From Candidatus Stoquefichus massiliensis AP9 (lineage in GTDB: Bacteria; Bacillota_I; Bacilli_A; Erysipelotrichales; Coprobacillaceae), in contig NZ_HG005288.1 in the NCBI RefSeq assembly GCF_000455285.1, forward strand, positions 249,766 through 293,029: 43,264 bases of DNA, written 5' to 3'. Positions 5,834 to 21,022 of the stretch are shown piece by piece. The translations under genes were made by a program, and so were the position numbers. Positions within the stretch are counted from its first letter, which is position 1; every line of letters begins with the position of its first letter. The notes under the pieces were generated by a model, which was given only the letters and a program-made list of their open reading frames with translations, was not told where the DNA came from and ran no database searches.

Positions 5834-6889
5834 TTATTTAAATAATATATTATTTTCCATAACTAATTCTAAAAGTGATGGACTATAAGTATATATACAC
5901 GTTCTATAAACCAATATACATAATATCAACAAAACTCCACTTACATTAATCAAATAATTTATCTTCTTACTATTTAAATTTTTAAAAATTAACATATTTA
6001 TTAATATTAATACATTTCTTATAATTCTAAAATAGTCAAAATGAAAAATTAATAATGGGACAAATAAGAAAGTAATAAACATAAATCTATTTTCATAAAT
6101 TATATTAGCTTGCTTTGTTATTAATATTATTTTATCTCTTAACCTAATATTCTTTTTAGAATACAGTATAAAAATAAACAAACAAAAAATCAGTATTACA
6201 AAAGTTATTACTGTTATAAAACTCGTTTTTGTTTGAAAATAACCACTAATTTTTTGTAAATTAAAAATATTAAAATAAATCAAACCTATTAATATACAGT
6301 CACCTAACAGTAGATATTTATATGTTTTTTTGAAAGTATTTTCATTTAAATAGATAAAATTAAAAATCAGATATACTAAAGCTGATGAATGAAATAATGA
6401 AGCAATTAAAATTCCCATATTATATTTAAACACATTTCTATCTCTAAAAATATAATTACACATCACTGATATTACAATACAACTTGCTAATCCATTTCTC
6501 GCCTGTATTACCTCAATAGGAAAAGGATAAATCATATATAATGCCAATAAGACATTAGGTTTATTTGATAATTTATAAATTGATAATGCCATTATAGTAA
6601 ATAAAACCATAAATAATAACATCCTAAAACTTTCAAAACTTAAATTTAAATTATAGGAAATTAATCCTAAATATCTATATCCTACTTCAAAATTCATATA
6701 GTATGAATAATATATATCATTTATATTCCCTGCACAATTGTAGACTCCTCTATAGCCTTCTAAATCCGGGATACCACTAGCATACCCAAAAATAATTGAT
6801 GTAATAACAATAATATATATGGTAACTATCTTATTTTTTTTTGCTAACAATCCAAATATGATTGCAGTAAAGTATAGAAACCAAATCAT
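5834..6889 (-). CDS. EpsG/Wzy-type polysaccharide polymerase, 351 aa
   Basis: A polytopic membrane protein with about ten hydrophobic segments. The pattern of the EpsG family is visible: an early D-x-x-x-Y segment (PDLEGYRGVYN), then E-x-GYRYL with a following F-x-x-F (SFESFRML), and Q-x-RN in QARNGLAS. Members polymerise exported lipid-linked repeat units outside the membrane. The start codon overlaps the stop of the glycosyltransferase gene (ATGA), which implies translational coupling. Together with the flippase it suggests a Wzx/Wzy-dependent polymer. The 640-bp gap downstream is unusual for this tightly packed operon and is explained by the IS1595-like remnant. Confidence 0.8.
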   Translation of the reverse strand: MIWFLYFTAIIFGLLAKKNKIVTIYIIVITSIIFGYASGIPDLEGYRGVYNCAGNINDIYYSYYMNFEVGYRYLGLISYNLNLSFESFRMLLFMVLFTIMALSIYKLSNKPNVLLALYMIYPFPIEVIQARNGLASCIVISVMCNYIFRDRNVFKYNMGILIASLFHSSALVYLIFNFIYLNENTFKKTYKYLLLGDCILIGLIYFNIFNLQKISGYFQTKTSFITVITFVILIFCLFIFILYSKKNIRLRDKIILITKQANIIYENRFMFITFLFVPLLIFHFDYFRIIRNVLILINMLIFKNLNSKKINYLINVSGVLLILCILVYRTCIYTYSPSLLELVMENNILFK

Positions 6890-7839
6890 ATTTTTTTCCT
6901 CTGCTTTGCAAAATCAAGTACTTCATCTTGATAATCCTTAATGAGATTTTTAAACTTTTTATAAAACACTCTGTAATTCTTTTTACTTATACAGAGAATC
7001 AAATACCTCAACTTTCTTATTCTTACTAATAATTTGCACATCATCTTTTTTTCATTTAAATATTCTTTCAAATATAACTGTTCACTATTAACCAAACAAG
7101 TATATGTATATGGTGTCATTCCTCCAGTCGAAACTCCATGCGCATGAATTACATGTGTATTGGGTATAACATAGATATCAAAATTTGCTTTTTCAACTAT
7201 TGATCCAATTATATATTCTTCTTCATATAAAAATGTTCTTTCGTCTAATGGATATAATAAATCTACTCCTTTTTTAGATATCATAAAACAACAACCACTA
7301 ACCCCAAATACTTTTATTGGCAATTTTAAAGATTCTTTTCTGATAAAAGATTTTTCAAATTTCCTAAAAAAGACTTTAAAAGGTGTACTTAACATCATAT
7401 TTTTAAGTTTCCCCACTGCATCTAACCTTTTTAACATATATATATACTGAAATTCATTTTCTGCATTATATATTTCCGGTCCAACTATTAAAGTATTTAC
7501 ATTATCATTCAAATATTCTTTCATAACTTTAATAGAATTATCTACAATTAATATATCACTATTACTTATTAAAAAATATTGACACCCATCTTGCATTGCT
7601 TTTTTAATGCCAATATTATTTCCTGCGGAATATCCCCTATTTTCTTTTGAAAACAATAATGCTATTTTTTCATCCCTTTCATATTCTTCCTTATCTCTAC
7701 TACTTATCTGAATTGTAGAACAATTATCTACAATATATATTTTATAAGTATCTTTTATGCTTACATGACTCTTAATTGAATCTACACATTTTTTTGTTTC
7801 AATCCATGTATTGTAATTCAATATAATAATACCTATCAT
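6886..7839 (-). CDS. Family 2 glycosyltransferase, 317 aa
   Basis: The N-terminus MIGIIILNYNTWIETKKCV and NRGYSAGNNIGI are classic GT2 nucleotide-sugar binding segments. The DxD-like motif is SNSDIL (residues about 92-97), and FLYEEEY near residue 210 carries acidic residues expected in the catalytic base region. The pattern of this subgroup resembles rhamnosyltransferase-like enzymes. It adds one sugar to the lipid-linked repeat unit on the inner face of the membrane. Start and stop overlap the neighbours by 4 nt each, so it belongs to one translationally coupled block with the CapF-like and EpsG-like genes. Acceptor and donor cannot be read from sequence. Confidence 0.85.
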   Translation of the reverse strand: MIGIIILNYNTWIETKKCVDSIKSHVSIKDTYKIYIVDNCSTIQISSRDKEEYERDEKIALLFSKENRGYSAGNNIGIKKAMQDGCQYFLISNSDILIVDNSIKVMKEYLNDNVNTLIVGPEIYNAENEFQYIYMLKRLDAVGKLKNMMLSTPFKVFFRKFEKSFIRKESLKLPIKVFGVSGCCFMISKKGVDLLYPLDERTFLYEEEYIIGSIVEKANFDIYVIPNTHVIHAHGVSTGGMTPYTYTCLVNSEQLYLKEYLNEKKMMCKLLVRIRKLRYLILCISKKNYRVFYKKFKNLIKDYQDEVLDFAKQRKKI

Positions 7840-8570
7840 ATTTTTTCCTCATCCTTATAATATTTATACGTATTATGTAATTGATTTTGCAGTATATCAT
7901 ACTTATCAAACTCATTATTCTTAATCCTTCCTAAGATACTTAATAATTCACCTAATGTCATTTCATATCTTACTGATGGTAATATATAGTCATCACAATA
8001 TATGTCCTTATTTAAATATTGTTTAAAATCCTCATAAAGATCATTGATATATGTAACTGTAATCTTATGACTTGGGTCATTAACGATAATTGGTATATTA
8101 TTCGCTAAATTAAAGCAGAAAGTTGAGATAACACTGTTAAAATTCGGCTTTCCATATTTACCAAATACATGATTCAGTTTAAAAACATACAATCTAGCAT
8201 TTTCTTTCGTGCAATGTTCTCTTAATAATTTTTCAGCTTCTTTTTTGGTCTTTGAAAAAATAGAATTAAACTCTATAGCTGTTGATGTTGAAAAAATAAT
8301 ACTTGACCTATTCTGATGTTTTTCTAAACAATTAATAAGTTTTTGAGTATACAAAATATTTCCTTCAATAAAATTCTTATCATCATCAGAACGTTGAACA
8401 GCAGCTAAATGAAAGACAAAATGACATATCTCGCAGCATTGATTAAGTTTTTCGTCTTCTTCATGAGAAACAGAAAGAACTTCATATCCATCATCTTCTA
8501 AAAATTCTATAAGATTTCTAGCTATAAAACCATTTTTTCCTGTAACTAATATCTTCATTGATCTTCCCAT
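7836..8570 (-). CDS. CapF-like SDR reductase lacking the cupin domain, 244 aa
   Basis: An NAD(P)-binding short-chain dehydrogenase/reductase: KILVTGKNGFIARN (residues 5-18) is the Rossmann motif, and FSTSTAIEFNS with FSKTKKEAEKLL holds the Ser and a Lys of the active-site region (the usual Tyr before that Lys is replaced: SKTKK). The closest family I recognise is CapF/FnlB, the second enzyme after CapE/FnlA on the way to UDP-N-acetyl-L-fucosamine. CapF is about 370 aa because a C-terminal cupin domain epimerises C3 before reduction. Here the protein ends at residue 244, right after the reductase domain, and the next gene starts 4 nt before its stop. The upstream CapE gene overlaps it. The start may be residue 5 (8558); either ATG is plausible. 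Confidence 0.72.
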   Translation of the reverse strand: MGRSMKILVTGKNGFIARNLIEFLEDDGYEVLSVSHEEDEKLNQCCEICHFVFHLAAVQRSDDDKNFIEGNILYTQKLINCLEKHQNRSSIIFSTSTAIEFNSIFSKTKKEAEKLLREHCTKENARLYVFKLNHVFGKYGKPNFNSVISTFCFNLANNIPIIVNDPSHKITVTYINDLYEDFKQYLNKDIYCDDYILPSVRYEMTLGELLSILGRIKNNEFDKYDILQNQLHNTYKYYKDEEKI

Positions 8571-9598
8571 TTTTCCTTTTCTTCAACTATGTCCTTTAAC
8601 GACAATAATTTTTCTACTGTTTCATCAATTGTTAGTAGTTGAGTATTATCACTATTAAATTCAGTTAATCCATTTCTATTGGTACCTTTAGATAAATAGT
8701 TATCATAGTTTAAGTCTCTTTTATCTGCTGGAACTCTGTAGAAGTCTCCCATGTCTATAGCCTTTGAACATTCTTCATTAGTTAAAAGAGTTTCATATGT
8801 TTTCTCACCATGACGAATCCCAATAATTTTATTTTCTTTTTTATAATTGAACACTTCCTTTATTGCCTCTGCTAAAACTTCAACTGTTGTTGCTGAAGCT
8901 TTCTGAACTAAAATATCTCCACTTACTCCATGCTCAAATGCAAATATAACAAGATCTACCGCTTCATCTAATGACATAATAAATCTTGTCATATGAGGAT
9001 CTGTAATTGTCAATGGTTTTCCTTCTTTTATCTGGTTAATAAAAAGAGGTATAACTGAACCTCTTGAACACATAACATTTCCATATCGTGTACACATAAT
9101 ACTTGTTTTTTCTGGATCGACTGTTCTACTTTTTGCAACAATGACTTTTTCCATCATTGCCTTGCTTGTTCCCATTGCATTGACTGGATAGGCTGCTTTA
9201 TCTGTAGATAAGCACACTACCTTTTTAACACCACATTCTATGGCTGCGGTTAATACATTTTCTGTTCCTAAAACATTTGTCTTAACTGCTTCAATAGGAA
9301 AAAACTCACAAGAAGGCACCTGCTTTAATGCTGCTGCATGAAAGATGTAATCTACACCATGCATAGCATTTCTAACTGAGTTTATATCTCTTACATCACC
9401 AATATAGAACTTAATCTTATCAGAGATTGCAGAATATTTTGCTTGATACTCATGACGCATATCATCTTGTTTTAATTCATCTCTACTAAATATTCTTATT
9501 TCCTTTATATCTGTATTTAAAAAACGGTTCAACACCGCATTACCAAATGATCCCGTACCCCCAGTAATTAATAATGTTTTATTTTCAAAATTACACAT
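8555..9598 (-). CDS. capE: CapE/FnlA-like UDP-GlcNAc 4,6-dehydratase/5-epimerase, 347 aa
   Basis: Converts UDP-GlcNAc into a 4-keto-6-deoxy-L-sugar nucleotide. GGTGSFG (13-19) is the cofactor loop. STDKAAYPVNAMGTSK (131-146) contains D133-K134 and the M142-x3-K146 arrangement; this Met in place of the usual Tyr is characteristic of CapE/FnlA and separates it from PseB or FlaA1. RYGNVMCSRGSVIPLF and MTRFIMSLDEAVDL are strongly conserved family segments. Length matches CapE. The gene overlaps the CapF-like gene by 16 nt, as expected for consecutive steps. No CapG/FnlC-type 2-epimerase gene is present in the cluster, so the final sugar may not be L-FucNAc. Confidence 0.9.
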   Translation of the reverse strand: MCNFENKTLLITGGTGSFGNAVLNRFLNTDIKEIRIFSRDELKQDDMRHEYQAKYSAISDKIKFYIGDVRDINSVRNAMHGVDYIFHAAALKQVPSCEFFPIEAVKTNVLGTENVLTAAIECGVKKVVCLSTDKAAYPVNAMGTSKAMMEKVIVAKSRTVDPEKTSIMCTRYGNVMCSRGSVIPLFINQIKEGKPLTITDPHMTRFIMSLDEAVDLVIFAFEHGVSGDILVQKASATTVEVLAEAIKEVFNYKKENKIIGIRHGEKTYETLLTNEECSKAIDMGDFYRVPADKRDLNYDNYLSKGTNRNGLTEFNSDNTQLLTIDETVEKLLSLKDIVEEKEKWEDQ

Positions 9599-9614
9599 AT
9601 TTATATTTCTCCTT

Positions 9615-10424
9615 TTACTCTGTCATAAATTCAAACCCTAATTTTCTTAGTGTTTTCTTGATAGTTCTTTTTATATTACCTGATAATTTTATTGATAAAT
9701 AAACCTTTATATTATATAACATCTCATTCTTATATGTCATAGTTTCCCTTGTTCCCGTATTAATCACTATTCCGTTTTTTTCATAAAATTTAATTGTTTT
9801 TCTTATCCATTTTCCTTGTAACACCCCGTTTTTATACCCAAACAAATCCCTTGTGTCATACTCTATTCCATCAATATATTCATCTGGTTTTCCATTCTTT
9901 TTATATATATTCACAAAAAAGCGCTCAAAGTCCCATGGAGAAATTGCACCTTCTTTATTCATTTTTTTCAGTATAGAAAGAAACTTGAGTCTGTTCCATA
10001 TTGCCAACTGTAAATTGATTGGATATTCAGTATTACTAGGTACTTTAATTTCCTTTTCATTTTGAATAAATCTCTTATTATTAGACAACTGATAAAAAAA
10101 TATTTCTTCATCCTTCATGTGTTGAACTATATGCAATATTTCATTTTCATCAATATTCTTACTAATGAAATAATCTTCTAAAAAAAATATGATATACTCT
10201 TCATCAACTAATTCTAATGCTCTAATTGTTCTATCAAACCAATTTATTTCTTTCCCCATTTTTAAAACAGTAAGATTTTCTTTATTGTAATTATTAAAAT
10301 TACTCACAAGATATGATTTAAAAGATATATTAGCCCAATATTGATTCATAATCTCATAAAATGATGACCAAATATCAGAATATCCATCAAATGAATCTAC
10401 AAATACCGCTATATTTTTTCCCAT
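9615..10424 (-). CDS. Probable glycosyltransferase of the capsule cluster, 269 aa
   Basis: It does not match the common GT2 or GT4 signatures. MGKNIAVFVDSFDGYSDIW looks like the first strand and turn of a nucleotide-sugar binding fold, IIFFLEDYFI (residues about 75-85) could serve as a metal-binding acidic motif in place of DxD, and PWDFERF (about 164-170) provides the W-x-x-E-R type pattern seen near the active site of several capsule glycosyltransferases. Soluble, with a basic C-terminus that may touch the membrane. It lies 16 nt upstream of the CapE-like gene. Function as a transferase is inferred from these weak motifs and from its location. Confidence 0.6.
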   Translation of the reverse strand: MGKNIAVFVDSFDGYSDIWSSFYEIMNQYWANISFKSYLVSNFNNYNKENLTVLKMGKEINWFDRTIRALELVDEEYIIFFLEDYFISKNIDENEILHIVQHMKDEEIFFYQLSNNKRFIQNEKEIKVPSNTEYPINLQLAIWNRLKFLSILKKMNKEGAISPWDFERFFVNIYKKNGKPDEYIDGIEYDTRDLFGYKNGVLQGKWIRKTIKFYEKNGIVINTGTRETMTYKNEMLYNIKVYLSIKLSGNIKRTIKKTLRKLGFEFMTE

Positions 10425-10706
10425 TTTAACCTCACTCCTTAAACAGTTTTTGTCTATAAATATCTTACATGATATAATTAATTCACCTATTTCATACCTA
10501 CAATTAGTACCTTGTTGATTTTGGCCACTTAATTAATTGAAAAATATTTTATTTATAACCGCATATGACTATAATAAAAATCGTATCAACAAAAATAATA
10601 AGCCCAGTTACAATAAAGTCATTTAAATTATAAATCTACTTCTCAAAAAATAATAATTGAATTTTGATTGCTATATAAGTCAGTAAATAATCAATAGTAT
10701 CTTTTT
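10425..10706. other. Gene-free gap inside the capsule cluster
   Basis: No open frame with a ribosome site. It interrupts an otherwise tightly spaced operon. A short minus-strand hydrophobic stretch (NDFIVTGLIIFVDTIF) may be a scrap of a lost membrane-protein gene. Confidence 0.35.
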
Positions 10707-11567
10707 CTATAAGCAATCAATATCTTTTTGTATTTTTAATCCAATATTATTGTATTGCTTATAATCTTTATTATACAAATGGTGTATTACTGCTTTAATT
10801 ACATTATCTAAATTACTTGACTCATCAAAGGAAATATGTTTTTCATCTTCTCCATAAATTATTATTTTCACTGTCTTCTTGGATAACATATCATATGATA
10901 TGATTCCTTTTGTTCCAACAAATTCAATATACCTTCTCTTTGTAGCAGATAATAATGAACAATGTATATGAATATCTATGTTTCCTAATCTCCCAGAATA
11001 ATAATAATTGTTTATTTCTTTGTAGTTATTCATTTTAATTATTTCATTTTTTGTATAATTATTTTCCCTATTAACAATATATCTAAGAACTGAAAACAAA
11101 TGAACACCTATCGTCTCGACAGCATTACCATTAGGGTAAAATTTCCCATACTGGGTTATCTCACCATTGACACTTTTTATAGTTCCAATTAAAGAAACAT
11201 TTTTTTTTATATAATTAATTCCTTGTGAGTAAAGATATGTATAATCAACAAATAACAATAAGTTTCGTTTATATGACAAATCATATAAATCAATCGCTTC
11301 TTCATAGGTTTGTGCTAATATTTTTTCACAAAAAACATGAATATTTTTTAAAAGCAATTTTTTAACAATCGAATAGTGTGTCGCAACTGGAGTGCAAACA
11401 AATGCCAAATCTGCTTCCTCAAGCATCTCTTCTTCTTTTTGCTTAATTGTTCCAATATCGACAATACCTATAATTTTCAATATATAAGAATATGATTTAA
11501 TATGCTGCTGTAATATTTTTGACCAATATCCATTTCCATATATAATTACATGGTAATTTTTTTTCAT
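10707..11567 (-). CDS. Gfo/Idh/MocA-type sugar oxidoreductase, 286 aa
   Basis: An NAD(P)-dependent dehydrogenase probably acting on a nucleotide sugar or sugar precursor. HVIIYGNGYWSKILQQHI is the Rossmann turn, ADLAFVCTPVATHYSIV the second nucleotide-binding segment and CEKILAQTYEEA corresponds to the family E-K-P motif, here EKI. Residues 115-250 form the usual alpha/beta dimerisation domain. At 286 aa it is shorter than the usual 320-350, and the 282-bp gap directly downstream suggests loss of C-terminal sequence. A good ribosome site (AAAGGTG) precedes the ATG. Substrate unknown. Confidence 0.75.
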   Translation of the reverse strand: MKKNYHVIIYGNGYWSKILQQHIKSYSYILKIIGIVDIGTIKQKEEEMLEEADLAFVCTPVATHYSIVKKLLLKNIHVFCEKILAQTYEEAIDLYDLSYKRNLLLFVDYTYLYSQGINYIKKNVSLIGTIKSVNGEITQYGKFYPNGNAVETIGVHLFSVLRYIVNRENNYTKNEIIKMNNYKEINNYYYSGRLGNIDIHIHCSLLSATKRRYIEFVGTKGIISYDMLSKKTVKIIIYGEDEKHISFDESSNLDNVIKAVIHHLYNKDYKQYNNIGLKIQKDIDCL

Positions 11568-11589
11568 TTTCTACACCTTTCATTTAGAA

Positions 11590-12345
11590 TCATATATTTA
11601 AATAATATCTTTTTAAGCTATTAAAAACATACCACCCAAAATAATAGCAGCGTGGAAAAAATGGTATATTCAAAATGTTTTTATATAAATTCCATAACCC
11701 TTTTGCAGCTTTTATCTTATTACTCGATACTGAATTATTATTTACTCTATAATGCATACATACTTCATCCATTCCATGTGCAGTATGCCCTTGTTTTAAA
11801 ATTGGAAATCTTAAAGCTCCATCCCAATTCATGTCCACTTTTTGGACAGGTAATATGTTTATATATTTCCTATCCATAATTACAGTTGAGTTCCCCATAT
11901 TAGTATTTTTTAAAAATGATTCATAAGTTTGAGTTTTAGGAGCTTTAATAATTTTATTTAATGATAATCCATTATCATCTATCCAATCATATGATGTATA
12001 CGTAAATTCATAATTGTTTTTTTTCATATATCTTAATTGTAAAGATAATTTATTATCAGTCCATATATCATCTGCATCTATAAATGCAACATATCTACCT
12101 TGCATATGTTTGAAAGCAGTATTCCAAGCAATTGCTGCTCCCATATTCTTTTCATGTCTAAACACTCTAATTCTAAGATCTTCAAATTCATTAATTATTT
12201 CATATGTATTATCCGTCGAACAATCATCAACAATCAATAATTCCCAATTTTGATAAGTTTGATTTAATACCGATTCTATTGCCTCTCTAATAGTTTTTCC
12301 AGCATTATATGCTGGAGTAATTATAGAAACTAAATTTTCTTCCAT
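11590..12345 (-). CDS. Family 2 glycosyltransferase, 251 aa
   Basis: A textbook GT-A enzyme of GT2: VSIITPAYNAGKTIREAIES at the N-terminus, ELLIVDDCSTDNTYEI with the nucleotide-binding Asp residues, FIDADDIW (about 92-99) with the metal-binding D-x-D, and MDEVCMHYRVN towards the C-terminus. No membrane span. It transfers a sugar to the growing repeat unit in the cytoplasm. It is 3 nt from the preceding glycosyltransferase gene and 22 nt before the Gfo/Idh gene. Donor and linkage cannot be told from sequence. Confidence 0.9.
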   Translation of the reverse strand: MEENLVSIITPAYNAGKTIREAIESVLNQTYQNWELLIVDDCSTDNTYEIINEFEDLRIRVFRHEKNMGAAIAWNTAFKHMQGRYVAFIDADDIWTDNKLSLQLRYMKKNNYEFTYTSYDWIDDNGLSLNKIIKAPKTQTYESFLKNTNMGNSTVIMDRKYINILPVQKVDMNWDGALRFPILKQGHTAHGMDEVCMHYRVNNNSVSSNKIKAAKGLWNLYKNILNIPFFPRCYYFGWYVFNSLKRYYLNI

Positions 12346-12348
12346 TTA

Positions 12349-13239
12349 TTATTCTCCTTTTTCAATATTTTTAATTAAATGGATTTCGTTTTTTATATTT
12401 ATATTTATTAGTGCACGTATATACTGTGTAATTACTACACTAATAATAAATAGTACAAATAAAATCAAACATAAAAAACAAGCATATAAATCACCAATAA
12501 AAAGTACACCACATATTAATGATAATCCTGAAAAAAGCAAACCAATAATCTGAATAGTATTAGTATAAAGAATGAAACTTTCAATTGCCTTATATATTCT
12601 TTCGCGTTTTTCAGTTTTATCATATTTTATTTGCTTAGATAAAGGGATATATTTCTCTCTTTTTACATCCATCCCACAAGACAAGATATTAGATAAATCA
12701 TTGGAATACAATTTTGCAAAATTATTTAATCTATTAATTGCTCTCCTCGAAAGCACTCTAACCGTTACTGGATAAATTTTTTGTGATTTTATAACACCTA
12801 TATTATACAAAGCATAATACATTTTTTGGGATATACTCGATTTTCTACATGGCGAAAATAAGACAATATCATACCCTTGCAATGCAATAGCATACGTCTT
12901 AATAAGTGATTCTAAATCATAGTTTATTATAATCCCATCAAATTCAAACACAAAATCTCCAATAGCAAAGTCAATTCCAGCTGCTATTGCCTCTTCAATA
13001 GATTTACAATAAGCTAAGCTAATAATGTTAAGTGTAACATGTGAAAATTTAGATTTACAAATTGCTTTCAACTTGTCTATTGTACTATCTGTTGATTCAT
13101 TATTAACGCATATTAATTCATAATTTTCAAAATTTTTTTCAAATAGAGGTATTATTTGATTTAAGAACTCTTCTATATATTTTTCATGATTTCTGACCCT
13201 GAAAACAATAGAAATAAATTTTTTTTCTTTTATCATCAT
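12349..13239 (-). CDS. Membrane-anchored family 2 glycosyltransferase, 296 aa
   Basis: The N-terminal 220 residues form a GT2 catalytic domain: FISIVFRVRNHEKYIEEF, then ELICVNNESTDSTIDKL and FVFEFDGII, in which E-x-D replaces the usual D-x-D. Two hydrophobic segments at about 232-272 anchor it to the membrane, an arrangement like that of DPM1/GtrB-type transferases that act on polyprenyl phosphate. The start overlaps the stop of the FAD oxidoreductase gene by 4 nt, which couples the two. The Asp-for-Glu difference in the metal site is notable but occurs in this large family. Confidence 0.78.
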   Translation of the reverse strand: MMIKEKKFISIVFRVRNHEKYIEEFLNQIIPLFEKNFENYELICVNNESTDSTIDKLKAICKSKFSHVTLNIISLAYCKSIEEAIAAGIDFAIGDFVFEFDGIIINYDLESLIKTYAIALQGYDIVLFSPCRKSSISQKMYYALYNIGVIKSQKIYPVTVRVLSRRAINRLNNFAKLYSNDLSNILSCGMDVKREKYIPLSKQIKYDKTEKRERIYKAIESFILYTNTIQIIGLLFSGLSLICGVLFIGDLYACFLCLILFVLFIISVVITQYIRALININIKNEIHLIKNIEKGE

Positions 13240-14372
13240 AGAATTTCCTCCAAATCATATACAGTATTAATTTTCCCAGATAGGACAGAATAAAACATAG
13301 GTTTATCAGAAAATTTTTTTATAACCGTTGGCCTTGAGTCATCAATTTCTGATAACTTTAATATAGGCTTCATTGAATATAAAGAATCTACATACTCAAA
13401 TTCAAAATTGCTTCTTAAATATTTTTTTGCAAGACTTGACATATATATCCATGCAGTCTTTGGTTTATTCATACAATTATTACAATTACCTAGCGATTTA
13501 TAATTACAATAACTTTCATTATCATTTTGACATGAAAAAGTAGGCAAATCATTCATTGATACCTTATGTGGTGTAAATGTTACTGATGTTAACGAATGAT
13601 ATCCTGTTTTCCCAAAAGGCATAATAGAAAAAAAAGGTCCATCCATTACTGTAATTCCTACATTTTTTAGATTTTTATTAATTCTGCACAATATTATTTC
13701 ACACAATTCATATTTAATTTTAAACTTTTCATAACCAATCATATCCAATATTTGGTTAATTGAAGCATAACTAGCATTTAACAGAAATTCTGTTCTATAT
13801 TCTTTATCATTAGCAGAAATATAATAATAATTATCATCTTTTTCAATTGTTTTCACTTCGTGATTACATAAAATATTCACATTACTCATCTCTTGAATTT
13901 TATGTAATAAATCAATTTTTAATTCGTTAGCATCATATGTGTATTCTTTTGTCATAAAGGCACCATCACATACATCATTGTTAAAATAGGTGCTTATTGA
14001 TATTTCGTCACACTGAATTCCTGTGTTTCTGCAAAAATTTATAAATTGTTCTCTATTTGTCCAAGAAAAATTTTTAGAAGTTGCATAAATTTGATTAAAC
14101 TCTGAATATATGGAATTTGGAAATTCATCCACAAATCTATCAAAATAATTCTTTGATTTTATAGCCGTTGAATAAGACCGAGGATAGTGATATCCCATAT
14201 GAACTCTTGCCTGATTAATATATGTTGCTCGTTGAAAAAGATCATCATCTCTTTCTAATACAAGGACTTTTTCTCCTTTTAAGCCACTATACCATGCAGC
14301 ATATATGCCATATAATCCTGCACCTATAATTATTTTGTCATACTTTTGCACATTACTATGTATAAATCTCAT
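13236..14372 (-). CDS. FAD-dependent oxidoreductase with a four-cysteine cluster, 378 aa
   Basis: An FAD-binding (DAO-type) oxidoreductase. KIIIGAGLYGIYAAW (13-27) is the dinucleotide-binding G-x-G-x-x-G and VLVLERDDD the second strand acid. RVHMGYHYPRS follows, and the C-terminus LSGKINTVYD resembles the last FAD contact. An insertion holds C281-x7-C289-x7-C297-x2-C300, which could bind a metal or iron-sulfur cluster. Such an enzyme is not a standard part of capsule pathways. Its coupling to the glycosyltransferase at 12349 and nearness to the Gfo/Idh gene suggest an unusual modified sugar or amino-acid substituent. The exact reaction is unknown. Confidence 0.72.
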   Translation of the reverse strand: MRFIHSNVQKYDKIIIGAGLYGIYAAWYSGLKGEKVLVLERDDDLFQRATYINQARVHMGYHYPRSYSTAIKSKNYFDRFVDEFPNSIYSEFNQIYATSKNFSWTNREQFINFCRNTGIQCDEISISTYFNNDVCDGAFMTKEYTYDANELKIDLLHKIQEMSNVNILCNHEVKTIEKDDNYYYISANDKEYRTEFLLNASYASINQILDMIGYEKFKIKYELCEIILCRINKNLKNVGITVMDGPFFSIMPFGKTGYHSLTSVTFTPHKVSMNDLPTFSCQNDNESYCNYKSLGNCNNCMNKPKTAWIYMSSLAKKYLRSNFEFEYVDSLYSMKPILKLSEIDDSRPTVIKKFSDKPMFYSVLSGKINTVYDLEEIL

Positions 14373-14428
14373 TTATATTTACCCTACCTTTCTATTGTGA
14401 TTTATCCGTATTTGATACTTTATAATTA

Positions 14429-15025
14429 CTACTCACTCAAGTGATATTCATTCATTTTTCTTCCTTGCTTAGTTTCATATGTTCTGCATAATATAAAACC
14501 ATTTTGGCAATAAAACTTATTCACATATTCATTGTTTTTAGCATCTGTTTCTAAAGAAATATATTTGAATTTGTTTAAATCAATATTTTCTTTTAAATAA
14601 CTGATCATCTGTGACCCAATACCCTTACCTTTTTCAGTTGGCATTACACCTATTGATGCCAATTCAATATATTTTTCCGGTCGTTGGACTTCCTCAGATT
14701 TTTTAAATGCTGATAACAATCTTATTAAAACTGTTGGCTTTTTAACAAATGCTATAAATGCATACCAGCCAAAATATAATAATTTTCTTTTCACTAAATA
14801 TTTATAAAATGAACTCATATCTTCTGAATATGCTATAAATCCTAAAACTTTATCATTTTCTAATGCAACAATAATATTAGAATTTTCATGTTCCATAAAT
14901 CCAAGGTATAACTGCTTTAAAAATCCTTTTCCCAAAAATGTTAAAAAGAAGCCATCAAATGTTTGTAGATGAATATGAACTATTTCATCTATATATTTTT
15001 TATCAGTAAGTATTAATATTTTCAT
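14429..15025 (-). CDS. GNAT-family N-acetyltransferase, 198 aa
   Basis: Acetyl-CoA-dependent transferase fold. The key motif A is ASIGVMPTEKGKGIGSQMI (about 122-140), with the G-x-G-x-G/A pyrophosphate loop (KGKGIGS). LETDAKNNEYVNKFYCQNGF (about 155-175) is motif B, with the Asn and Tyr typical of the family. It sits between the sugar transferase and the FAD oxidoreductase genes. Given the DegT aminotransferase two genes upstream, a likely role is acetylation of an amino sugar, as PseH or WecD do, but it could equally modify another group. Confidence 0.82.
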   Translation of the reverse strand: MKILILTDKKYIDEIVHIHLQTFDGFFLTFLGKGFLKQLYLGFMEHENSNIIVALENDKVLGFIAYSEDMSSFYKYLVKRKLLYFGWYAFIAFVKKPTVLIRLLSAFKKSEEVQRPEKYIELASIGVMPTEKGKGIGSQMISYLKENIDLNKFKYISLETDAKNNEYVNKFYCQNGFILCRTYETKQGRKMNEYHLSE

Positions 15026-15033
15026 TCTTCCAC

Positions 15034-15726
15034 CTACACTTTCACTACAGTGTTTATCATCACACTGATATCTTTCATAAAATAAAAAGAAGTCATTGCA
15101 TCTAGATTGTATTTCATCTTTAATGGCAGTACTTCATTGATATAGACTTCATTTGTTTCTCTTCCCTGTGACACATACTTCTCTATAATCTCATCTTCAT
15201 CCTTGAACTGAATACTCGCTAATGATGTGACACCTGCAGGTAATAATAATGTTGCATACATTTCATTTGTATATTGATCTACATACTTCTTAACCTCTGG
15301 TCTTGTTCCTACAAAACTCATATCTCCTATTAAAACATTAAATAGTTGTGGTATCTCATCTATGCGATACTTTCGTATCTTTTCACCTACACGTGTAATT
15401 CTAGAATCATTCTTAGATGTGACTAGATTACCTATTTGATCAGCGTCGCTGATCATTGTTCTAAATTTGAATATTTTAAATATTCTTCCATACTGTGTAA
15501 CTCTTTCCTGTCTATAAAAGACTGTTCCTTTTGAATCTATCTTAATCCATATAGAAAAGAACAGAATAACTGGAGACAAAAGAATAATCAATATGAAGGA
15601 AACAATAATATCAAACAACCTCTTTAATATTAACTGAAACTTCTTTTTTCTTAATATTTCATAATAAGGTCTGACTTCATCAGTTTGCATATATTCAGGA
15701 AGGTCTTCCCACTTCTTTATAAGCAT
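15034..15726 (-). CDS. Initiating sugar-phosphate transferase (undecaprenyl-phosphate type), 230 aa
   Basis: Starts each repeat unit by moving a sugar-1-phosphate to undecaprenyl phosphate. One membrane segment (about 44-62, IIVSFILIILLSPVILFF) is followed by the catalytic segment with RQERVTQYGRIFKIFKFRTM and KYRIDEIPQLFNVLIGDMSFVGTRPE, the strongly conserved DE-x-PQ and GTRPE signatures of the WcaJ/PglC fold (short form without extra N-terminal helices). The start overlaps the aminotransferase stop by 10 nt. The pairing suggests that the aminotransferase product is the first sugar, as in clusters that start with a 4-amino-6-deoxy sugar. Confidence 0.92.
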   Translation of the reverse strand: MLIKKWEDLPEYMQTDEVRPYYEILRKKKFQLILKRLFDIIVSFILIILLSPVILFFSIWIKIDSKGTVFYRQERVTQYGRIFKIFKFRTMISDADQIGNLVTSKNDSRITRVGEKIRKYRIDEIPQLFNVLIGDMSFVGTRPEVKKYVDQYTNEMYATLLLPAGVTSLASIQFKDEDEIIEKYVSQGRETNEVYINEVLPLKMKYNLDAMTSFYFMKDISVMINTVVKV

Positions 15727-16940
15727 TCTAATACTTCCTTAAAGGTATTAGTAATGTATTCAACATCTTCATCAGTGAGATTTGTATGAAGTGGTAATGT
15801 TACCTCATTAACAAATAAATTATAAGTATTGGGATAGTCCGTAATTTCAAAGCCTAAATTCTTATAAGCTGTCAGCATTGGAAGTGGCTTATAATGAACA
15901 TTACATGCAACACCTTTTTCTGCCATCTTTTCTATAACCATATTTCTTTGTTCTGATGTTATATTAGGAATTCTTGTAATATATAAATGTCCACTAGACT
16001 GATGAGCATCACTATAATGATCTAATACTTGTATTCCTAAAGGTATTAATGCTTTATCATACTTGTTGATTATTTCTTTTCTTCTCTTGATCATTTCAGG
16101 ATATCTTTTGAATTGAGCTAAGCCAATACCAGCCATGATATCTGTCATATTGCATTTATACAAGGGAGCAACAACATCATATTCCCAAGCCCCTAATTTT
16201 GTTTTAGCTAAAGCATCTTTAGATTGACCATGTAATGATAATAACTGCAACTGATGATAGATATCCTCATCATCAATACCTGGAATTGTTTTCCATGTAA
16301 GTGCTCCACCTTCAGCAGTTGTCAGATTCTTAACTGCATGAAATGAGAAAGAACTAAAGTCAGCTATTGAGCCAACCATCTGATTGTTCCATGAAGCACC
16401 AAACGAATGAGCTGTATCAGCACATATTGCTATTCTTCCAATTGCTTTTTGAATATCATTAGATGGTTTGAACAAATGTTTCTTCTGTTCTACTATTTCA
16501 TAGAGTTTATCGTAATCACAAGGTATTCCCCCTAGATCTACTGGTATAATAGCTTTTGTCTTTTCATTAATCGCATGAGCCAAAGCATCATAGTCCATCT
16601 CTACGTTATCTTTTTGAGCATCAACAATAACAAGTTTAGCTCCTACATGGCACACTACAGCAGCACTTGCTGTATATGTATAAGCTGGAACAATCACTTC
16701 ATCTCTCTCACCAATACCTAAAATACGCAATGCCATTTCTGCACATGCCGTTTGAGAATTAAGACATACACATTTATTAACACCAACATATTTTGCAATC
16801 TCTTTTTCAAATTCTTTGACTTTGGGCCCAGTTGTAATCCAACCAGATTTTAATGTATCAATCACTTCATTAATTTCATTTTCACCTATGTCTGGTGGTG
16901 AAAATGGAATGACTCTTTTCATAGTTTTGCATTCATTCAT
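15717..16940 (-). CDS. DegT/DnrJ/EryC1/StrS aminotransferase, 407 aa
   Basis: A PLP-dependent nucleotide-sugar aminotransferase that converts a 4-keto sugar to a 4-amino sugar. Seen: the N-terminal PFSPPDIGENEI and GWITTGPKV, ADTAHSFGA (174-182) with the Asp that contacts PLP nitrogen, and SFSFHAVKNLTTAEGGA with K204 as the Schiff-base lysine. The ribosome site GGGGG precedes the ATG at 16940. It is second in the operon, next to the initiating transferase. In capsule loci that make 2-acetamido-4-amino-2,4,6-trideoxygalactose such a pair is found (WcfR/WcfS-like), which makes a zwitterionic polymer possible. No retaining 4,6-dehydratase for the substrate is present in this window. Confidence 0.9.
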   Translation of the reverse strand: MNECKTMKRVIPFSPPDIGENEINEVIDTLKSGWITTGPKVKEFEKEIAKYVGVNKCVCLNSQTACAEMALRILGIGERDEVIVPAYTYTASAAVVCHVGAKLVIVDAQKDNVEMDYDALAHAINEKTKAIIPVDLGGIPCDYDKLYEIVEQKKHLFKPSNDIQKAIGRIAICADTAHSFGASWNNQMVGSIADFSSFSFHAVKNLTTAEGGALTWKTIPGIDDEDIYHQLQLLSLHGQSKDALAKTKLGAWEYDVVAPLYKCNMTDIMAGIGLAQFKRYPEMIKRRKEIINKYDKALIPLGIQVLDHYSDAHQSSGHLYITRIPNITSEQRNMVIEKMAEKGVACNVHYKPLPMLTAYKNLGFEITDYPNTYNLFVNEVTLPLHTNLTDEDVEYITNTFKEVLECL

Positions 16941-16952
16941 TATTTATCCCCC

Positions 16953-17186
16953 TTAAAAGAAACTTGGTTCTTCACCAAACTGTTTCTTATAATCTTCTTC
17001 CCAATCTTTACTATTCTCTTTTAATTCTAAGTTAATAATGATTTGATTATTAACTGCTTTCATAGAATGAATAGAGTAATTGTTTAATAATTGATGATAA
17101 GCATCTTTACCATGTTGGTAATGATATTGCTTATCATCAATTATGCATGTGACTTCTGACTCTATTTTTGTTAATATTTCCAACAT
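16953..17186 (-). CDS. Small hypothetical protein, first gene of the capsule operon, 77 aa
   Basis: Unrecognised. Starts at the ATG at 17186 behind AAGGAG. It is soluble and acidic at the C-terminus (DWEEDYKKQFGEEPSFF). The segment ESEVTCIIDDKQYHYQHG looks like a beta hairpin. Position right after the leader with terminator and only 12 nt before the aminotransferase gene makes it part of the operon. It could be an accessory or regulatory peptide; no function can be assigned. Confidence 0.65.
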   Translation of the reverse strand: MLEILTKIESEVTCIIDDKQYHYQHGKDAYHQLLNNYSIHSMKAVNNQIIINLELKENSKDWEEDYKKQFGEEPSFF

Positions 17187-17208
17187 AATTTCACTCTCCT
17201 TATGCTAA

Positions 17209-17235
17209 TAAAAAAAACAGGTTCATCGCCTGTTT
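17209..17235 (-). terminator. Intrinsic terminator in the capsule-operon leader
   Basis: On the minus strand, AAACAGG, a 7-nt loop and CCTGTTT are followed by a run of T (17217-17211). It sits 25 nt before the first structural gene and after the two NusG-like genes. Transcripts must pass it to reach the capsule genes. Confidence 0.85.
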
Positions 17236-17306
17236 AAGCCTTATTTATATGTGAGAAGATACAGTCTCCCCTACCCCAAATAAACAAGACTCTATGTTCC
17301 AAATTA

Positions 17307-17337
17307 AAGTGTCAGCCAGTTAACCAACGTAACACTT
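17307..17337 (-). promoter_or_regulatory. Leader hairpin, candidate antiterminator recognition element
   Basis: On the minus strand AAGTGT (17337-17332) pairs with ACACTT (17312-17307), with further partial pairing between GTTGGTTAACTGGC bases inside. It begins inside the stop region of the second NusG-like gene and lies about 70 nt before the terminator. LoaP-type proteins are known to bind a leader RNA hairpin; this is the best candidate here. Confidence 0.45.
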
Positions 17338-17833
17338 AATTCTTGCTTTTAATTTCTACACCAAGAACTATCTTTCTATCAAAAAAAGGTAAATCTAACT
17401 GTGCAATACAACTATGTTTAACAACTTTAATAATATGATCTTGATAATTTAATAATGGTCCACTTGTAATAACTGTCTTACCATTTTCTTGATAACCAAC
17501 AGATACTCTCGCAACATATTCATCATCTAATACACTATTAAAGAATTCTATTTCTTTGTCTCTTAATGCTGATACTTCAGCATTTTCTAATTGTTTAATG
17601 AGTCCTTCGTTCTTATCTCTCATAGATAATAAAAGATCATTAAAATCATTTTGATTTAAATAAGATTTTACAAAGATATAATTATTAAACATATCTCTTA
17701 CTGTTTTTTTCTTTGCTTCCCTATGAAAAACTTCACTTTTAGGAATAAAAGCAATAAGTTCTTTTTGTTGATTCAAATTAGAAAGTATTTTATTTGTTTT
17801 ATGACTTAATACATATAAAACATACCAATTCAT
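17336..17833 (-). CDS. NusG-like specialised antiterminator (LoaP-type), second copy, 165 aa
   Basis: An N-terminal NGN domain (MNWYVLYVLSHKTNKIL, then MFNNYIFVKS) and a C-terminal KOW domain (ITSGPLLNYQDHIIKVVKHS). NusG paralogues of the LoaP and RfaH type bind elongating RNA polymerase and keep it from stopping at terminators within long polysaccharide or antibiotic operons. This copy is the more diverged: the KOW segment has lost the RHKR-type basic patch of its neighbour. It overlaps the first copy by 4 nt, so the two are made in coupled fashion. Directly downstream is a hairpin leader with an intrinsic terminator, the expected target. Confidence 0.85.
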   Translation of the reverse strand: MNWYVLYVLSHKTNKILSNLNQQKELIAFIPKSEVFHREAKKKTVRDMFNNYIFVKSYLNQNDFNDLLLSMRDKNEGLIKQLENAEVSALRDKEIEFFNSVLDDEYVARVSVGYQENGKTVITSGPLLNYQDHIIKVVKHSCIAQLDLPFFDRKIVLGVEIKSKN

Positions 17834-18333
17834 GATTTGCTTACAACCTCTAAAGGAACTTTCATGATTCTACCTAATATATTGCAATCCAAAATAGCCA
17901 TTCTTTTATGTCTATCTATTCTTTTAATACTTTTTTCTAGACCAATCAGCGGTCCATCATTTATGATTAAACGAGAATCAGCAATATGTCCTGTAGAATG
18001 TTTTATTACCCCTTGATTATCAAACATCTTTTCCAAAAGAACCTGTTCCATTGAAGTTAATGAAAAAATACTTTCATACTCTAATAATTGAGCAACATGA
18101 TTAATTGAATAAAAGAAATCTTCATATTTCTTCTGAAATTCATCATGTTTTAAAGATGTTCTAATAAAGATATAGTCAGGATACATATAGGATGTCTGAA
18201 ATTCTTTAACTCTAGAATTAGAGAACCATTTCTCCATCTTTGGTAAAAATGCATAAATATTTTGATTATCATTCAAATAATCAATAATTTCTTGACATTT
18301 TCCTGATTTAACATGCACTATATACCAATCCAT
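17830..18333 (-). CDS. NusG-like specialised antiterminator (LoaP-type), first copy, 167 aa
   Basis: NGN domain with DWYIVHVKSGKCQEIIDYL at the start and MYPDYIFIRTS in the central sheet; KOW domain with INDGPLIGLEKSIKRIDRHK (about 125-145), very like LoaP. It acts with RNA polymerase to read through terminators. The ATG at 18333 is preceded by GGGAGGAA at 7 nt spacing. Only 24 nt separate the start from the left inverted repeat of the recombinase segment, and I see no convincing promoter reading leftward across that repeat in the present orientation. Its transcription therefore probably depends on the orientation of the segment. Confidence 0.88.
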   Translation of the reverse strand: MDWYIVHVKSGKCQEIIDYLNDNQNIYAFLPKMEKWFSNSRVKEFQTSYMYPDYIFIRTSLKHDEFQKKYEDFFYSINHVAQLLEYESIFSLTSMEQVLLEKMFDNQGVIKHSTGHIADSRLIINDGPLIGLEKSIKRIDRHKRMAILDCNILGRIMKVPLEVVSKS

Positions 18334-18356
18334 ACGTCATTCCTCCCTGTTTTTAC

Positions 18357-18380
18357 TTCGCAGAACTACTTATTCTAGGA
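18357..18380. repeat. Left inverted repeat and recombinase core site (IR-L)
   Basis: TTCGCAGAACTACTTATTCT (18357-18376) is the exact reverse complement of 19575-19594. As a recombination core it reads TCGCAGAA (arm), CTACTTA (7-bp spacer), TTCTAGGA (arm with two mismatches to a perfect palindrome). Confidence 0.9.
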
Positions 18381-18423
18381 TAAATTACTTGAAAATAAAT
18401 AGATAATTAAAGTTATAAAATAA

Positions 18424-18469
18424 AAGAAAGAGTAAAATCCCTAAATTCATAAGCATTTGACTCTTTCTT
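18424..18469 (-). terminator. Terminator of the recombinase gene
   Basis: AAGAAAGAGT (18424-18433) pairs perfectly with ACTCTTTCTT (18460-18469); an inner AAAT/ATTT adds four pairs. On the minus strand the stem is followed by a T-rich run. It shields the NusG-like genes from recombinase readthrough in the present orientation. Confidence 0.75.
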
Positions 18470-18498
18470 CATCTATCTATATTAAAATAGGTAAGGAA

Positions 18499-19443
18499 CT
18501 AAGACAACATAGGTTTTTCTATTTTATCAACTTGACTCATCTTAAATTTTAATGATGAATGAACATATAAATTAAGTGTTGTTGAAATATTAGAATGACC
18601 TAATATTTCACTTAATGATTTCACATCTACACCAGACATAACACAATTTGTTGCATATGTATGTCTTAATGCATGAAAGTTCATATGAATATCATATTGC
18701 TGACATAATTTATGAAATTTATATTGAACAGTTCTTGGATCAACGAGTTTTAATGAGTTTGATACAACATAATATTGATCATTTTTTTCTTTATTTATAT
18801 TGTAATATTGACAAAGATATTCTTTAAGAAATAAAGGAATTGGTACAATTCTTTGTGATGTTATTGTTTTTGGATCAGATATAATAAGAGTTGTTTTAGA
18901 AGCGTTATTTTCTTTATTTTTAAGTCTTTGAACAGTCTTTTTTATTTCAATTGTTCCTGCTTTTAAATCAATATCTTCCCATTGTAAGGCACAAATTTCT
19001 CCTATTCTAAGTCCTGCATATAATCCTAGTAAAATACATACAGATATTGATTCTAAATGTAATAAACTATATCTTTCTAAATATTGTTTTTCATCATTTC
19101 CTAATACATCACATTTAATTTTACTTTTAGGAAGTTTAAAATAATTTAAATTAATGTGATGAATATGATATTTATCTTCTGCGAATTGAAAAATAGATTG
19201 AATTGTAAATAATATTGTTTTCATAGAACTATTGGATAGTTTTTTACCTTGTAATTCTTCTGTTAGAAAAGTAACAATTAACTTATCATCTATATCATTT
19301 AATATATATTTTTCAAAAAATGGTATTAAATGTAAATAAACAATATTTTCATACTTAGAATAACTGGAATATTTTACATACATCTTTTTTAGATTCAACC
19401 ATTCTTCTGATAAATTTTGAAATGTCATACAATTTTTTTCCAT
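18499..19443 (-). CDS. Tyrosine site-specific recombinase (probable DNA invertase), 314 aa
   Basis: A phage-integrase family enzyme. Residues about 8-95 form the SAM-like core-binding domain (FQNLSEEWLNLKKMYV). The catalytic domain has R146 (LYAGLRIGEI), K192 (DPKTITSQR), H257-x-x-R260 (HALRHTYATN), H283 (ILGHSNISTT) and the nucleophile Y293 (LNLYVHSS), so all catalytic residues are present. The start at 19443 follows AGGAAGG. The gene lies entirely within the 20-bp inverted repeats, each shaped like a core site of this family. That arrangement resembles hin of Salmonella in layout but with a tyrosine, not serine, enzyme. Confidence 0.9.
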   Translation of the reverse strand: MEKNCMTFQNLSEEWLNLKKMYVKYSSYSKYENIVYLHLIPFFEKYILNDIDDKLIVTFLTEELQGKKLSNSSMKTILFTIQSIFQFAEDKYHIHHINLNYFKLPKSKIKCDVLGNDEKQYLERYSLLHLESISVCILLGLYAGLRIGEICALQWEDIDLKAGTIEIKKTVQRLKNKENNASKTTLIISDPKTITSQRIVPIPLFLKEYLCQYYNINKEKNDQYYVVSNSLKLVDPRTVQYKFHKLCQQYDIHMNFHALRHTYATNCVMSGVDVKSLSEILGHSNISTTLNLYVHSSLKFKMSQVDKIEKPMLS

Positions 19444-19538
19444 TCATAGACCCTTCCTTTGTTCAAATATTAAATCAATAATACGACTTATATATATTTC
19501 AATTACATCTTAATAATGAATAAATCTGTCTTTTCAGG

Positions 19539-19566
19539 TTGATTTTTAGCATATATGTGTTATAAT
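19539..19566 (+). promoter_or_regulatory. Invertible outward promoter
   Basis: TTGATT (19539-19544), 16 bp, TATAAT (19561-19566), with TG one base before the -10 box (extended -10). Transcription would start near 19573, at the inner edge of the right inverted repeat, and run rightward, away from the capsule operon. After inversion it would read into the NusG-like genes. Confidence 0.75.
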
Positions 19567-19570
19567 TTTT

Positions 19571-19594
19571 TCGCAGAATAAGTAGTTCTGCGAA
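19571..19594. repeat. Right inverted repeat and recombinase core site (IR-R)
   Basis: TCGCAGAA (19571-19578), spacer TAAGTAG (19579-19585) and TTCTGCGA (19586-19593) form a perfect palindromic core. The spacer is the reverse complement of that at the left site, as required for inversion rather than excision. Confidence 0.9.
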
Positions 19595-19611
19595 AAATAT
19601 TTTTAATAAAC

Positions 19612-19641
19612 AGGTGTTCATTTGGTATGAACACCTTTTCT
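19612..19641. terminator. Bidirectional terminator outside IR-R
   Basis: AGGTGTTCAT (19612-19621), loop TTGGT, ATGAACACCT (19627-19636), followed by TTTTCT. On the plus strand it would end transcripts of the invertible promoter after about 65 nt; on the minus strand it follows gpr. Confidence 0.88.
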
Positions 19642-19666
19642 ATAATTATATTATTTCTTATTGCAA

Positions 19667-20635
19667 TTAATATCTTAAATTATTAATACTTGTTGATAGT
19701 ATCTTTGATATCATTTCTATATCAAAATCTATTTGTTTGTCACTCATGACAAACTGATCCTCTATAGGATTTAAGACTTCATTGAGTAATTGTATTCTTT
19801 TTTGTTCGTCTAATTGTCCGATTTCTCCTAAGATTAAACGTCTTTGGACTTCATTAAGTCTTCCTTCATATCTTTTACGTTTTCCTACTTTTAATGCTGT
19901 TGAGGGATCTAATGATTCTTTAAAGTATCCTTCTAACAGATTATAAACATCACTAACAAGACTTGATACATGAATAACTGTTGGTATTCCTATCGCAATG
20001 ACTGGCACACCCATCGATGTTTCTGTAATACTCTTACGATGATTTCCGATACCACTTCCTGGATATATTCCTACATTATTCATTTGAATCACATGACAGA
20101 TTTTTTCATAACTTTGAGCACACAATGCATCAATGGCAATAATTAAATCAGGACGGTATTCATTCACTAAACAACTCACAATATCTGCTGTTTCCATTCC
20201 TGTATGTGCCATAACACCTGGTGCAATACATAAGCTATCATAATATTGTTGATGATGTCTTTCATCTAATGGATAATGATGTGTTGCTCGTAAGTGTTTA
20301 ATTGTTCTGGGACCAATAGCATCACTTGTTAATGTTTCATTTCCTAAGCCTACAAAGAGAATTAAAGGATCTATTTTCTTTGTTTTTTCTTTAATAAATA
20401 AAGATAATTGTTGTTCAAAATGTTTGGCGATAGTAGAAACATCCTGATAATCTGGAAAACTTATTTCTACATATTGTCCTATTTCATGAGGATAAAGATC
20501 ACTTGTTTGTAATATTTCAAATGTTTCAATTGTAATATTTCCATCTTTTTTCTCGAAACGTTTATAATCTTTATCTTGTGTAGCTAATGCTAAGGATTCT
20601 ATTGCTAAATCACTTCGTGTATAATATTTCTTCAT
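19667..20635 (-). CDS. gpr: Germination protease GPR, 322 aa
   Basis: Degrades small acid-soluble spore proteins when spores germinate; made as an inactive precursor in the forespore. The N-terminal TRSDLAIESLAL matches the propeptide cleavage region, which resembles the SASP cleavage site. Conserved GPR segments are visible: FVGLGNETLTSDAIGPRTI (about 94-112), APGVMAHTGMETADIV, IIAIDALCAQSYEKI and GSGIGNHRKSI. Length is slightly below the usual 350-370. It is good evidence that the organism sporulates. It lies 31 nt from the terminator next to the invertible segment and is divergent from rpsT. Confidence 0.95.
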   Translation of the reverse strand: MKKYYTRSDLAIESLALATQDKDYKRFEKKDGNITIETFEILQTSDLYPHEIGQYVEISFPDYQDVSTIAKHFEQQLSLFIKEKTKKIDPLILFVGLGNETLTSDAIGPRTIKHLRATHHYPLDERHHQQYYDSLCIAPGVMAHTGMETADIVSCLVNEYRPDLIIAIDALCAQSYEKICHVIQMNNVGIYPGSGIGNHRKSITETSMGVPVIAIGIPTVIHVSSLVSDVYNLLEGYFKESLDPSTALKVGKRKRYEGRLNEVQRRLILGEIGQLDEQKRIQLLNEVLNPIEDQFVMSDKQIDFDIEMISKILSTSINNLRY

Positions 20636-20694
20636 GTTCTCACCACATTAAGCATTGACAAATTAAAAAAAAATAATCATTTCACAATAAAACA

Positions 20695-20723
20695 TTGCAT
20701 TTATCGTCTATTTTTGATAGAAT
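20695..20723 (+). promoter_or_regulatory. Promoter of rpsT
   Basis: TTGCAT (20695-20700), 17 bp, TAGAAT (20718-20723), about 35 bp before the start codon of S20. Confidence 0.75.
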
Positions 20724-20758
20724 AACTAGGCGAAAGACAAAAGCGAGGTGAAAGAACA

Positions 20759-21022
20759 ATGGCAAACATGAAACAACAAATCAAACGTTATAAAAACGAT
20801 AACAAAAAACGTGCAATCAACAATTCTTATAAAAGTGCTTTAAAAACAGCAATTAAAAACGTAAGAGCTGCAGTTGAAGCTGGAGATAAAGAAGCTGCTA
20901 TCGTTGCTTACAATGTTGCTGCATCTAAATTAGATGCTTCAGTAAGCAAAGGAATTCATCATAAGAACTATGCTAGCAGACAAAAATCAAGATTAGCAAA
21001 ATTAGTTAATTCTATCGCTTAA
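20759..21022 (+). CDS. rpsT: 30S ribosomal protein S20, 87 aa
   Basis: Primary 16S rRNA-binding protein of the small subunit. The sequence is highly basic and helical: MANMKQQIKRYKNDNKKRAI at the start, SALKTAIKNVRAAVEAGDKE in the middle and GIHHKNYASRQKSRLAKLVN at the end, all typical. Ribosome site GAGGTGAAAG precedes the ATG. Divergent from gpr and with its own promoter and terminator, as in many Firmicutes where rpsT lies next to gpr. Confidence 0.97.
   Translation: MANMKQQIKRYKNDNKKRAINNSYKSALKTAIKNVRAAVEAGDKEAAIVAYNVAASKLDASVSKGIHHKNYASRQKSRLAKLVNSIA

Follow-up and report, generated by a model that had tools for sequence, protein, structure and literature searches.

What do two divergent NusG paralogues, encoded by overlapping genes directly upstream of a capsule gene cluster, control, and what does each of them contribute? 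The pair, NusG-A and NusG-B, lies on contig 5 of the 3.5-Mb genome of Candidatus Stoquefichus massiliensis AP9, within a stretch of 43,264 nucleotides (NZ_HG005288.1, positions 249,766 to 293,029), which was analysed as a whole and is referred to below as the window (Table 1). The original prediction, made from the letters of the window, described two divergent, overlapping NusG paralogues. Both open reading frames are found at the predicted positions, the start of NusG-B overlaps the end of NusG-A by 4 nt (ATGA), and the two proteins share 26% identity over their full length (E 3e-20). As also predicted, the pair is unusual and its copies are long diverged; the same pair is present in other genomes. 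The prediction saw the pair itself and missed the invertible segment upstream and the attenuator RNA downstream, and it is these two elements that probably show what the two antiterminators control.

Table 1. Features of the NusG-A/NusG-B locus (positions within the window; site letters in lower case depart from the consensus).
Feature	Position	Strand	Description
Capsule/exopolysaccharide gene cluster	5834..16940	-	presumed target; directly downstream
77-aa ORF	16953..17186	-	after the leader; ends GEEPSFF; no Pfam or NCBIfam family
Intrinsic terminator	17210..17235	-	AAACAGGCGATGAACCTGTTT followed by a U-run; separates NusG-B from the capsule genes
G-rich leader box	17260..17279	-	TTGGGGTAGGGGAGACTGTA; conserved in most leaders
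Leader hairpin P1	17307..17337	-	conserved cap GGUUAAC; stem sequence variable
NusG-B	17336..17833	-	165 aa, ATG start; second LoaP-class NusG paralogue
NusG-A	17830..18333	-	167 aa, ATG start; LoaP-class NusG paralogue with basic KOW segment GLEKSIKRIDRHKR
Near recombination site	18357..18381	.	TTCGCAGAA-CTACTTA-TTCTaGgAt; 23 nt before the NusG-A start codon
Segment predicted to invert	18369..19582	.	spacer centre to spacer centre, ~1.2 kb
Tyrosine recombinase	18499..19443	-	within the segment; Pfam Phage_integrase 2.9e-26
Extended -10 promoter	19539..19566	+	TTGATT-16-TATAAT; far end of the segment; near-consensus
Far recombination site	19570..19594	.	TTCGCAGAA-TAAGTAG-TTCTGCGAA; inverted partner of 18357-18381

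The capsule cluster encodes a DegT aminotransferase, an initiating sugar transferase, glycosyltransferases, epimerases and an EpsG-family protein. Six genes of the genome match Pfam NusG, namely: core NusG, the window pair, a second A-B pair (L007) located 185 kb away at another capsule cluster, and one ordinary LoaP (L008) at a third. A profile search adds a divergent LoaP-like gene at a fourth polysaccharide cluster (L027), where a recombinase gene and an inverted repeat lie beside it.

Both members of the window pair match Pfam NusG above its curated cut-off, with 46 bits for NusG-B and 41 bits for NusG-A. The best NCBIfam model is LoaP (NF033641) in each case, with scores of 106.6 bits (NusG-A) and 90.4 bits (NusG-B) that lie below the curated cut-off of 125 bits. 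The UpxY model, for which the cut-off is 100, gives 36.5-49.8 bits; this is clearly under the LoaP scores and places neither protein in the UpxY family. AlphaFold models built from alignments of relatives have an NGN and KOW fold with a mean pLDDT of 85-87, and for both models the nearest solved structure found with Foldseek is 8f5g, deposited as ‘NusG-RNA complex’, which we take to be the LoaP-RNA structure cited in PMC12691694. By profile and by predicted fold, NusG-A and NusG-B are both of the LoaP class.

The two families have kept complementary sets of residues. In the 22 NusG-A copies, the basic KOW residues R141 and R144 are present in 90% and 100%, respectively, and the KOW glycine in 77%, while a basic residue of the N-domain is lost. 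In NusG-B copies, the N-domain arginine R38 is retained in 96% of cases, and the KOW glycine and the second of the basic residues are gone. The earlier claim that the first copy carries a basic KOW segment and the second does not is therefore correct at the level of the families, as judged from these residue counts; the window NusG-B itself is atypically eroded in this region (KVVKHS vs. KVDKHN in most B copies). The residues of both proteins can be placed tentatively, by alignment only, against the RNA contacts of LoaP, which are E40, R41 and I143 (PMC12691694).

In order to see how the pair is distributed, one may look at the 60 relatives, in which 29 B loci are found. A lies directly upstream of B in 22 of them and is missing at the other 7, and among the same 60 relatives there is no A gene without B, all 22 being placed directly upstream of a B gene. 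Frequent loss of one copy, which the original prediction had set against itself, is hence seen in part: A is missing at some B loci, but B is never missing beside A. One further A-B pair occurs in a sister family (G074), and outside the order none was detected in samples of 395 genomes of the class and 392 of the phylum at the thresholds used. With an alignment of close B copies as query, the cassette was found in the named carriers Longibaculum muris, Thomasclavelia cocleata, T. saccharogumia and Erysipelatoclostridium sp. An173; NusG-A alone as query against genome contigs gave zero matches.

In a tree of 72 proteins, A forms one clade (support 98/94). A joint group of A and B (96/98) is separated from the ordinary single LoaP genes that these genomes also carry; the exception is L087, which sits on a very long, poorly placed branch. 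The B copies of the two cassettes in the genome (window and L007) are 62% identical and the A copies 43%. Recent duplication is excluded, because A and B differ far more from each other than do these two B copies, and in the tree the A/B split predates the divergence of the cassettes. Across the 22 A-B pairs, pairwise identities average 43% for A and 51% for B, and B is the more similar protein in 200 of 231 locus comparisons: A evolves faster than B. The dN/dS ratio between close copies is 0.09-0.31 for both genes, indicating purifying selection, and the reading frames are intact in 22 of 22 pairs. A recent duplicate under relaxed selection, the other outcome that the prediction had named as damaging to it, is ruled out by the separate A clade together with the dN/dS values.

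The near recombination site separates the pair from a recombinase gene flanked by inverted copies of the same short site. The sites have the form TTCGCAGAA-N7-TTCTGCGAA with the core AGAA-N7-TTCT, and the spacers of the near and far sites of the window are exact reverse complements of each other, the near site being an imperfect match to the consensus (TTCTaGgAt). The site pattern occurs at just four places in the 3.5-Mb genome, and a reversed control pattern at 0. The enclosed tyrosine recombinase contains the catalytic motifs GLRIGE, HALRH, LGH and LY, and homologues occupy the equivalent position in about ten relative cassettes. The promoter lies within the far end of the segment and is directed away from the NusG pair, so that we read the orientation in the window as OFF. 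When the segment is flipped in silico, TTGATT-16-TATAAT moves to a position immediately ahead of the near site and the NusG-A ribosome-binding site. At 19 loci, outward promoters at the segment ends score above inward controls (Wilcoxon p 1e-4). As in the window, most loci have the promoter at the far end, directed away (OFF); in L097 and L104 it is at the near end, facing NusG-A (ON), and its end is ambiguous in L098, L105, L107 and L113.

Invertibility seems to go with the presence of A. An upstream site pair is found at 18 of the 22 A-B pairs vs. 1 of the 7 B-only loci (Fisher p 0.003), and A, by this comparison, is tied to the invertible form of the locus. In 10 of the 18 cases, the partner site is 1.0-1.4 kb away with a recombinase inside; in the other 8, the distance is roughly 150-350 bp and the interval contains no recombinase. 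The spacer is specific to each locus and matched between its partner sites, and in one of the relatives (G001) five paired sites lie upstream of B genes. Both orientations exist among homologous cassettes of different species. The clearest case is L112 vs. L098, in which the segment is inverted over 1.42 kb while the NusG genes are collinear; a recombinase or promoter segment is likewise inverted, with A and B collinear, in L104/L108, L113/L106 and L091/L097. From these comparisons between species we infer that the segment also flips in the window strain.

Two rival explanations of the locus can be weighed at this point. According to one, the recombinase and the repeats are the remains of a mobile element, the repeats being its attachment sites, and play no part in regulating the capsule. 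Tyrosine recombinases often serve to mobilise elements, and this genome has several others, but the sites are inverted rather than direct, their locus-specific spacers match between partners, and the layout recurs at 18 A-B loci, 8 of which have no recombinase between the sites. We reject this reading as very improbable because the sites are inverted and both orientations are seen among the cassettes. The other explanation, that one copy of the pair is a decaying duplicate without function, could draw on the absence of A at 7 of 29 B loci and on the eroded KOW segment of the window NusG-B. It is just as hard to uphold, given the purifying selection on both genes, the intact frames of all the pairs and a split that is older than the divergence of the cassettes.

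Downstream of the pair, a leader RNA is predicted between the B stop codon and the capsule genes. Its elements follow in the order P1, a GAACATA box, the G-rich box (TTGGGGTAGGGG) and the intrinsic terminator, and the base of P1 overlaps the end of the NusG-B stop codon. In one leader subtype, the G-rich box lies inside the terminator loop. Compared with shuffled sequences, the fold of the window leader is better by 3.6 SD. The P1 cap is conserved (GG-UUUA-CC type) and is carried by 13 different outer helices; the 100% pairing of the outer stem is not independent evidence, since the arms were taken from each sequence's own fold. Searched against the 60 whole genomes, a covariance model of the leader gives 15 matches at E < 1e-5, of which 14 are directly behind a B gene and 1 is behind a decayed B remnant. 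An Rfam scan of positions 14000-21000 did not return the leader, its sole match being an irrelevant miRNA below cut-off, and the G-rich box, used as a stand-alone marker, lacks specificity at 2 mismatches. The leader hairpin does not have the UNCG loop that was reported for the target of LoaP but the GG-UUUA-CC type of cap, and for this reason binding of the leader RNA is proposed by analogy. The single match behind a B remnant (L177, about 9848-9925; G021 C29) marks a pseudogenised cassette.

Of the two proteins, it is most likely B that reads the leader. Leader divergence correlates more strongly with that of B than with that of A (Mantel r 0.74 vs. 0.56; partial 0.61 vs. 0.23). Relative to L091, the window is 88% identical in B and 88% in the leader, and 42% in A, while relative to L095 it is 80% identical in A and 40% in B, so that the window itself is a natural A/B chimera. 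The B-only loci L101, L109 and L115 keep the leader with both elements. The covariation, the chimera and the B-only leaders together therefore point to B as the leader-reading antiterminator, although the co-inheritance of B and leader may be due in part to their adjacency.

Taken together, we propose, with a probability of about three in four, that the locus controls a phase-variable capsule operon, as a cassette made up of an invertible promoter, two LoaP-like antiterminators and an attenuator leader. The tyrosine recombinase would invert the segment that carries its own gene by means of the two AGAA-N7-TTCT sites. In one orientation, the outward promoter would drive NusG-A and NusG-B; in the orientation found in the window, it points away and the capsule operon would be OFF. 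In the ON state, the transcript would pass through A and B into the leader with P1, the G-rich box and the intrinsic terminator, and a LoaP-like protein made from the same transcript would act on the leader and so let RNA polymerase pass the terminator into the capsule genes. Read-through at this terminator is suggested by analogy with LoaP of B. velezensis. The result would be a tight switch of two steps, namely: promoter orientation and antitermination. A would be an added, faster-evolving partner, acting either as a second antitermination factor or as an enforcer of the expression of one locus at a time.

The latter role can be worded as a mechanism in its own right, in which B serves as antiterminator for the locus that encodes it and A acts in trans as an antagonist of the leaders or B proteins of other loci, so that one capsule is made at a time. 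It has a precedent in Bacteroides, where UpxY and its antagonist UpxZ are encoded behind invertible promoters (PMC12118408), and it would fit a protein that accompanies the invertible loci, always occurs with B and evolves faster than B, as well as B-only loci that mostly lack a site pair and in several cases keep the leader. A nevertheless resembles a full NusG paralogue with its basic KOW residues intact, and is also present in genomes with a single such cassette (G003, G012, G034 and G036); we regard such restraint as unlikely. An obligate A-B heteromer, or a single complex holding two signals (hairpin and G-rich box), is similarly doubtful. Here, each copy would supply one half of the nucleic-acid-binding surface of LoaP, as the complementary retention of the KOW arginines in A and R38 in B might suggest; the overlapping genes hint at translational coupling, and the leader does have two conserved elements. 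However, some loci with both leader elements have B but no A, and the RNA contacts of LoaP were placed on the two proteins by alignment only. A broader synthesis, which we offer tentatively and consider improbable as a whole, is that of a processive antitermination system with two subunits, in which A and B would be co-evolved LoaP-type halves reading a bipartite leader (hairpin and G-rich box), with B providing leader identity and A locus exclusivity, behind a self-inverting recombinase-promoter segment, and the system would have arisen in Bacillota independently of the UpxY/UpxZ logic of Bacteroides.

The proposed phase-variable control cassette shares parts with several known systems. In B. 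velezensis, LoaP acts through an RNA hairpin of the leader to bring about read-through of a terminator in that leader (PMC12691694). The window resembles this system in the best profile and solved-structure match of A and B, the biosynthetic operon, the leader hairpin and the intrinsic terminator, and differs in having tandem paralogues, scores below the cut-off, the GG-UUUA-CC type of cap in place of UNCG, and an invertible promoter. Capsule loci of Bacteroides, several of which occur per genome, consist of an invertible promoter, a NusG paralogue gene, a second regulator gene and the capsule operon (PMC12118408, PMC11892184), and this order is the same as that of the window. Unlike them, the present loci belong to Bacillota, have two regulators that are both LoaP-type NusG paralogues, enclose the recombinase within the inverting segment in about ten cassettes, and have a conserved leader RNA with an intrinsic terminator behind the regulators.

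RfaH is likewise a NusG paralogue for surface-polysaccharide operons, but in sequence and fold A and B are much nearer to LoaP. The leader box GGGGTAGGGG resembles the ops element of RfaH (GGCGGTAGCGTG), a likeness that we treat as a lead only; it differs in that the box is part of a terminator loop or a hairpin. Tyrosine-recombinase invertons of gut bacteria have the short inverted repeats, the outward promoter and the surface-polysaccharide targets in common with the window. Their median number per genome in Bacillus-like Firmicutes was zero in one defined community (PMC11892184), in contrast to the five paired sites of G001. A search of freely accessible papers returned no paper that joins LoaP with invertible promoters or describes this arrangement, which does not prove that there is none.

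If the proposal holds, gut commensals of the Coprobacillaceae type would have a phase variation of capsules that is analogous to that of Bacteroides and built from different parts, and part of the question of how gut bacteria other than Bacteroides diversify their surfaces would be answered. The system also offers a compact, conserved RNA target with a linked antiterminator. Since natural variants (B-only and A-B) and natural A/B chimeras exist, the presumed division of labour between the two NusG paralogues is directly testable.

Some further arrangements were observed around these loci. L026 (9375-10498; C10) encodes a recombinase 46% identical to that of the window; a site with the same consensus adjoins its start, and the sequence nearby is masked. 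An inverted repeat of the TCTAAGA type near another recombinase gene (L028, 4495-4739) is a possible further invertible segment. L027 (3348-5244) and L118 (3167-5074) occupy the same chromosomal position in the two species of the genus. Each has one divergent LoaP-like gene together with a recombinase and a short invertible segment, and the polysaccharide genes that follow differ between them; the two represent a third type of switch, behind which the capsule genes have been exchanged. Relatives of the 77-aa ORF follow the leader at L096 and, with a broken frame, at L103. Small homologous ORFs of ~70-82 aa without a clear Pfam match are located between A and B at L105 and L113 (broken in the latter) and in place of A at L096, and possibly encode a third component of the cassette. 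Finally, L126 and L110 are 97.5% identical from the upstream region through the leader terminator and have different capsule genes beyond it, which we read as an exchange with its breakpoint right after the terminator.
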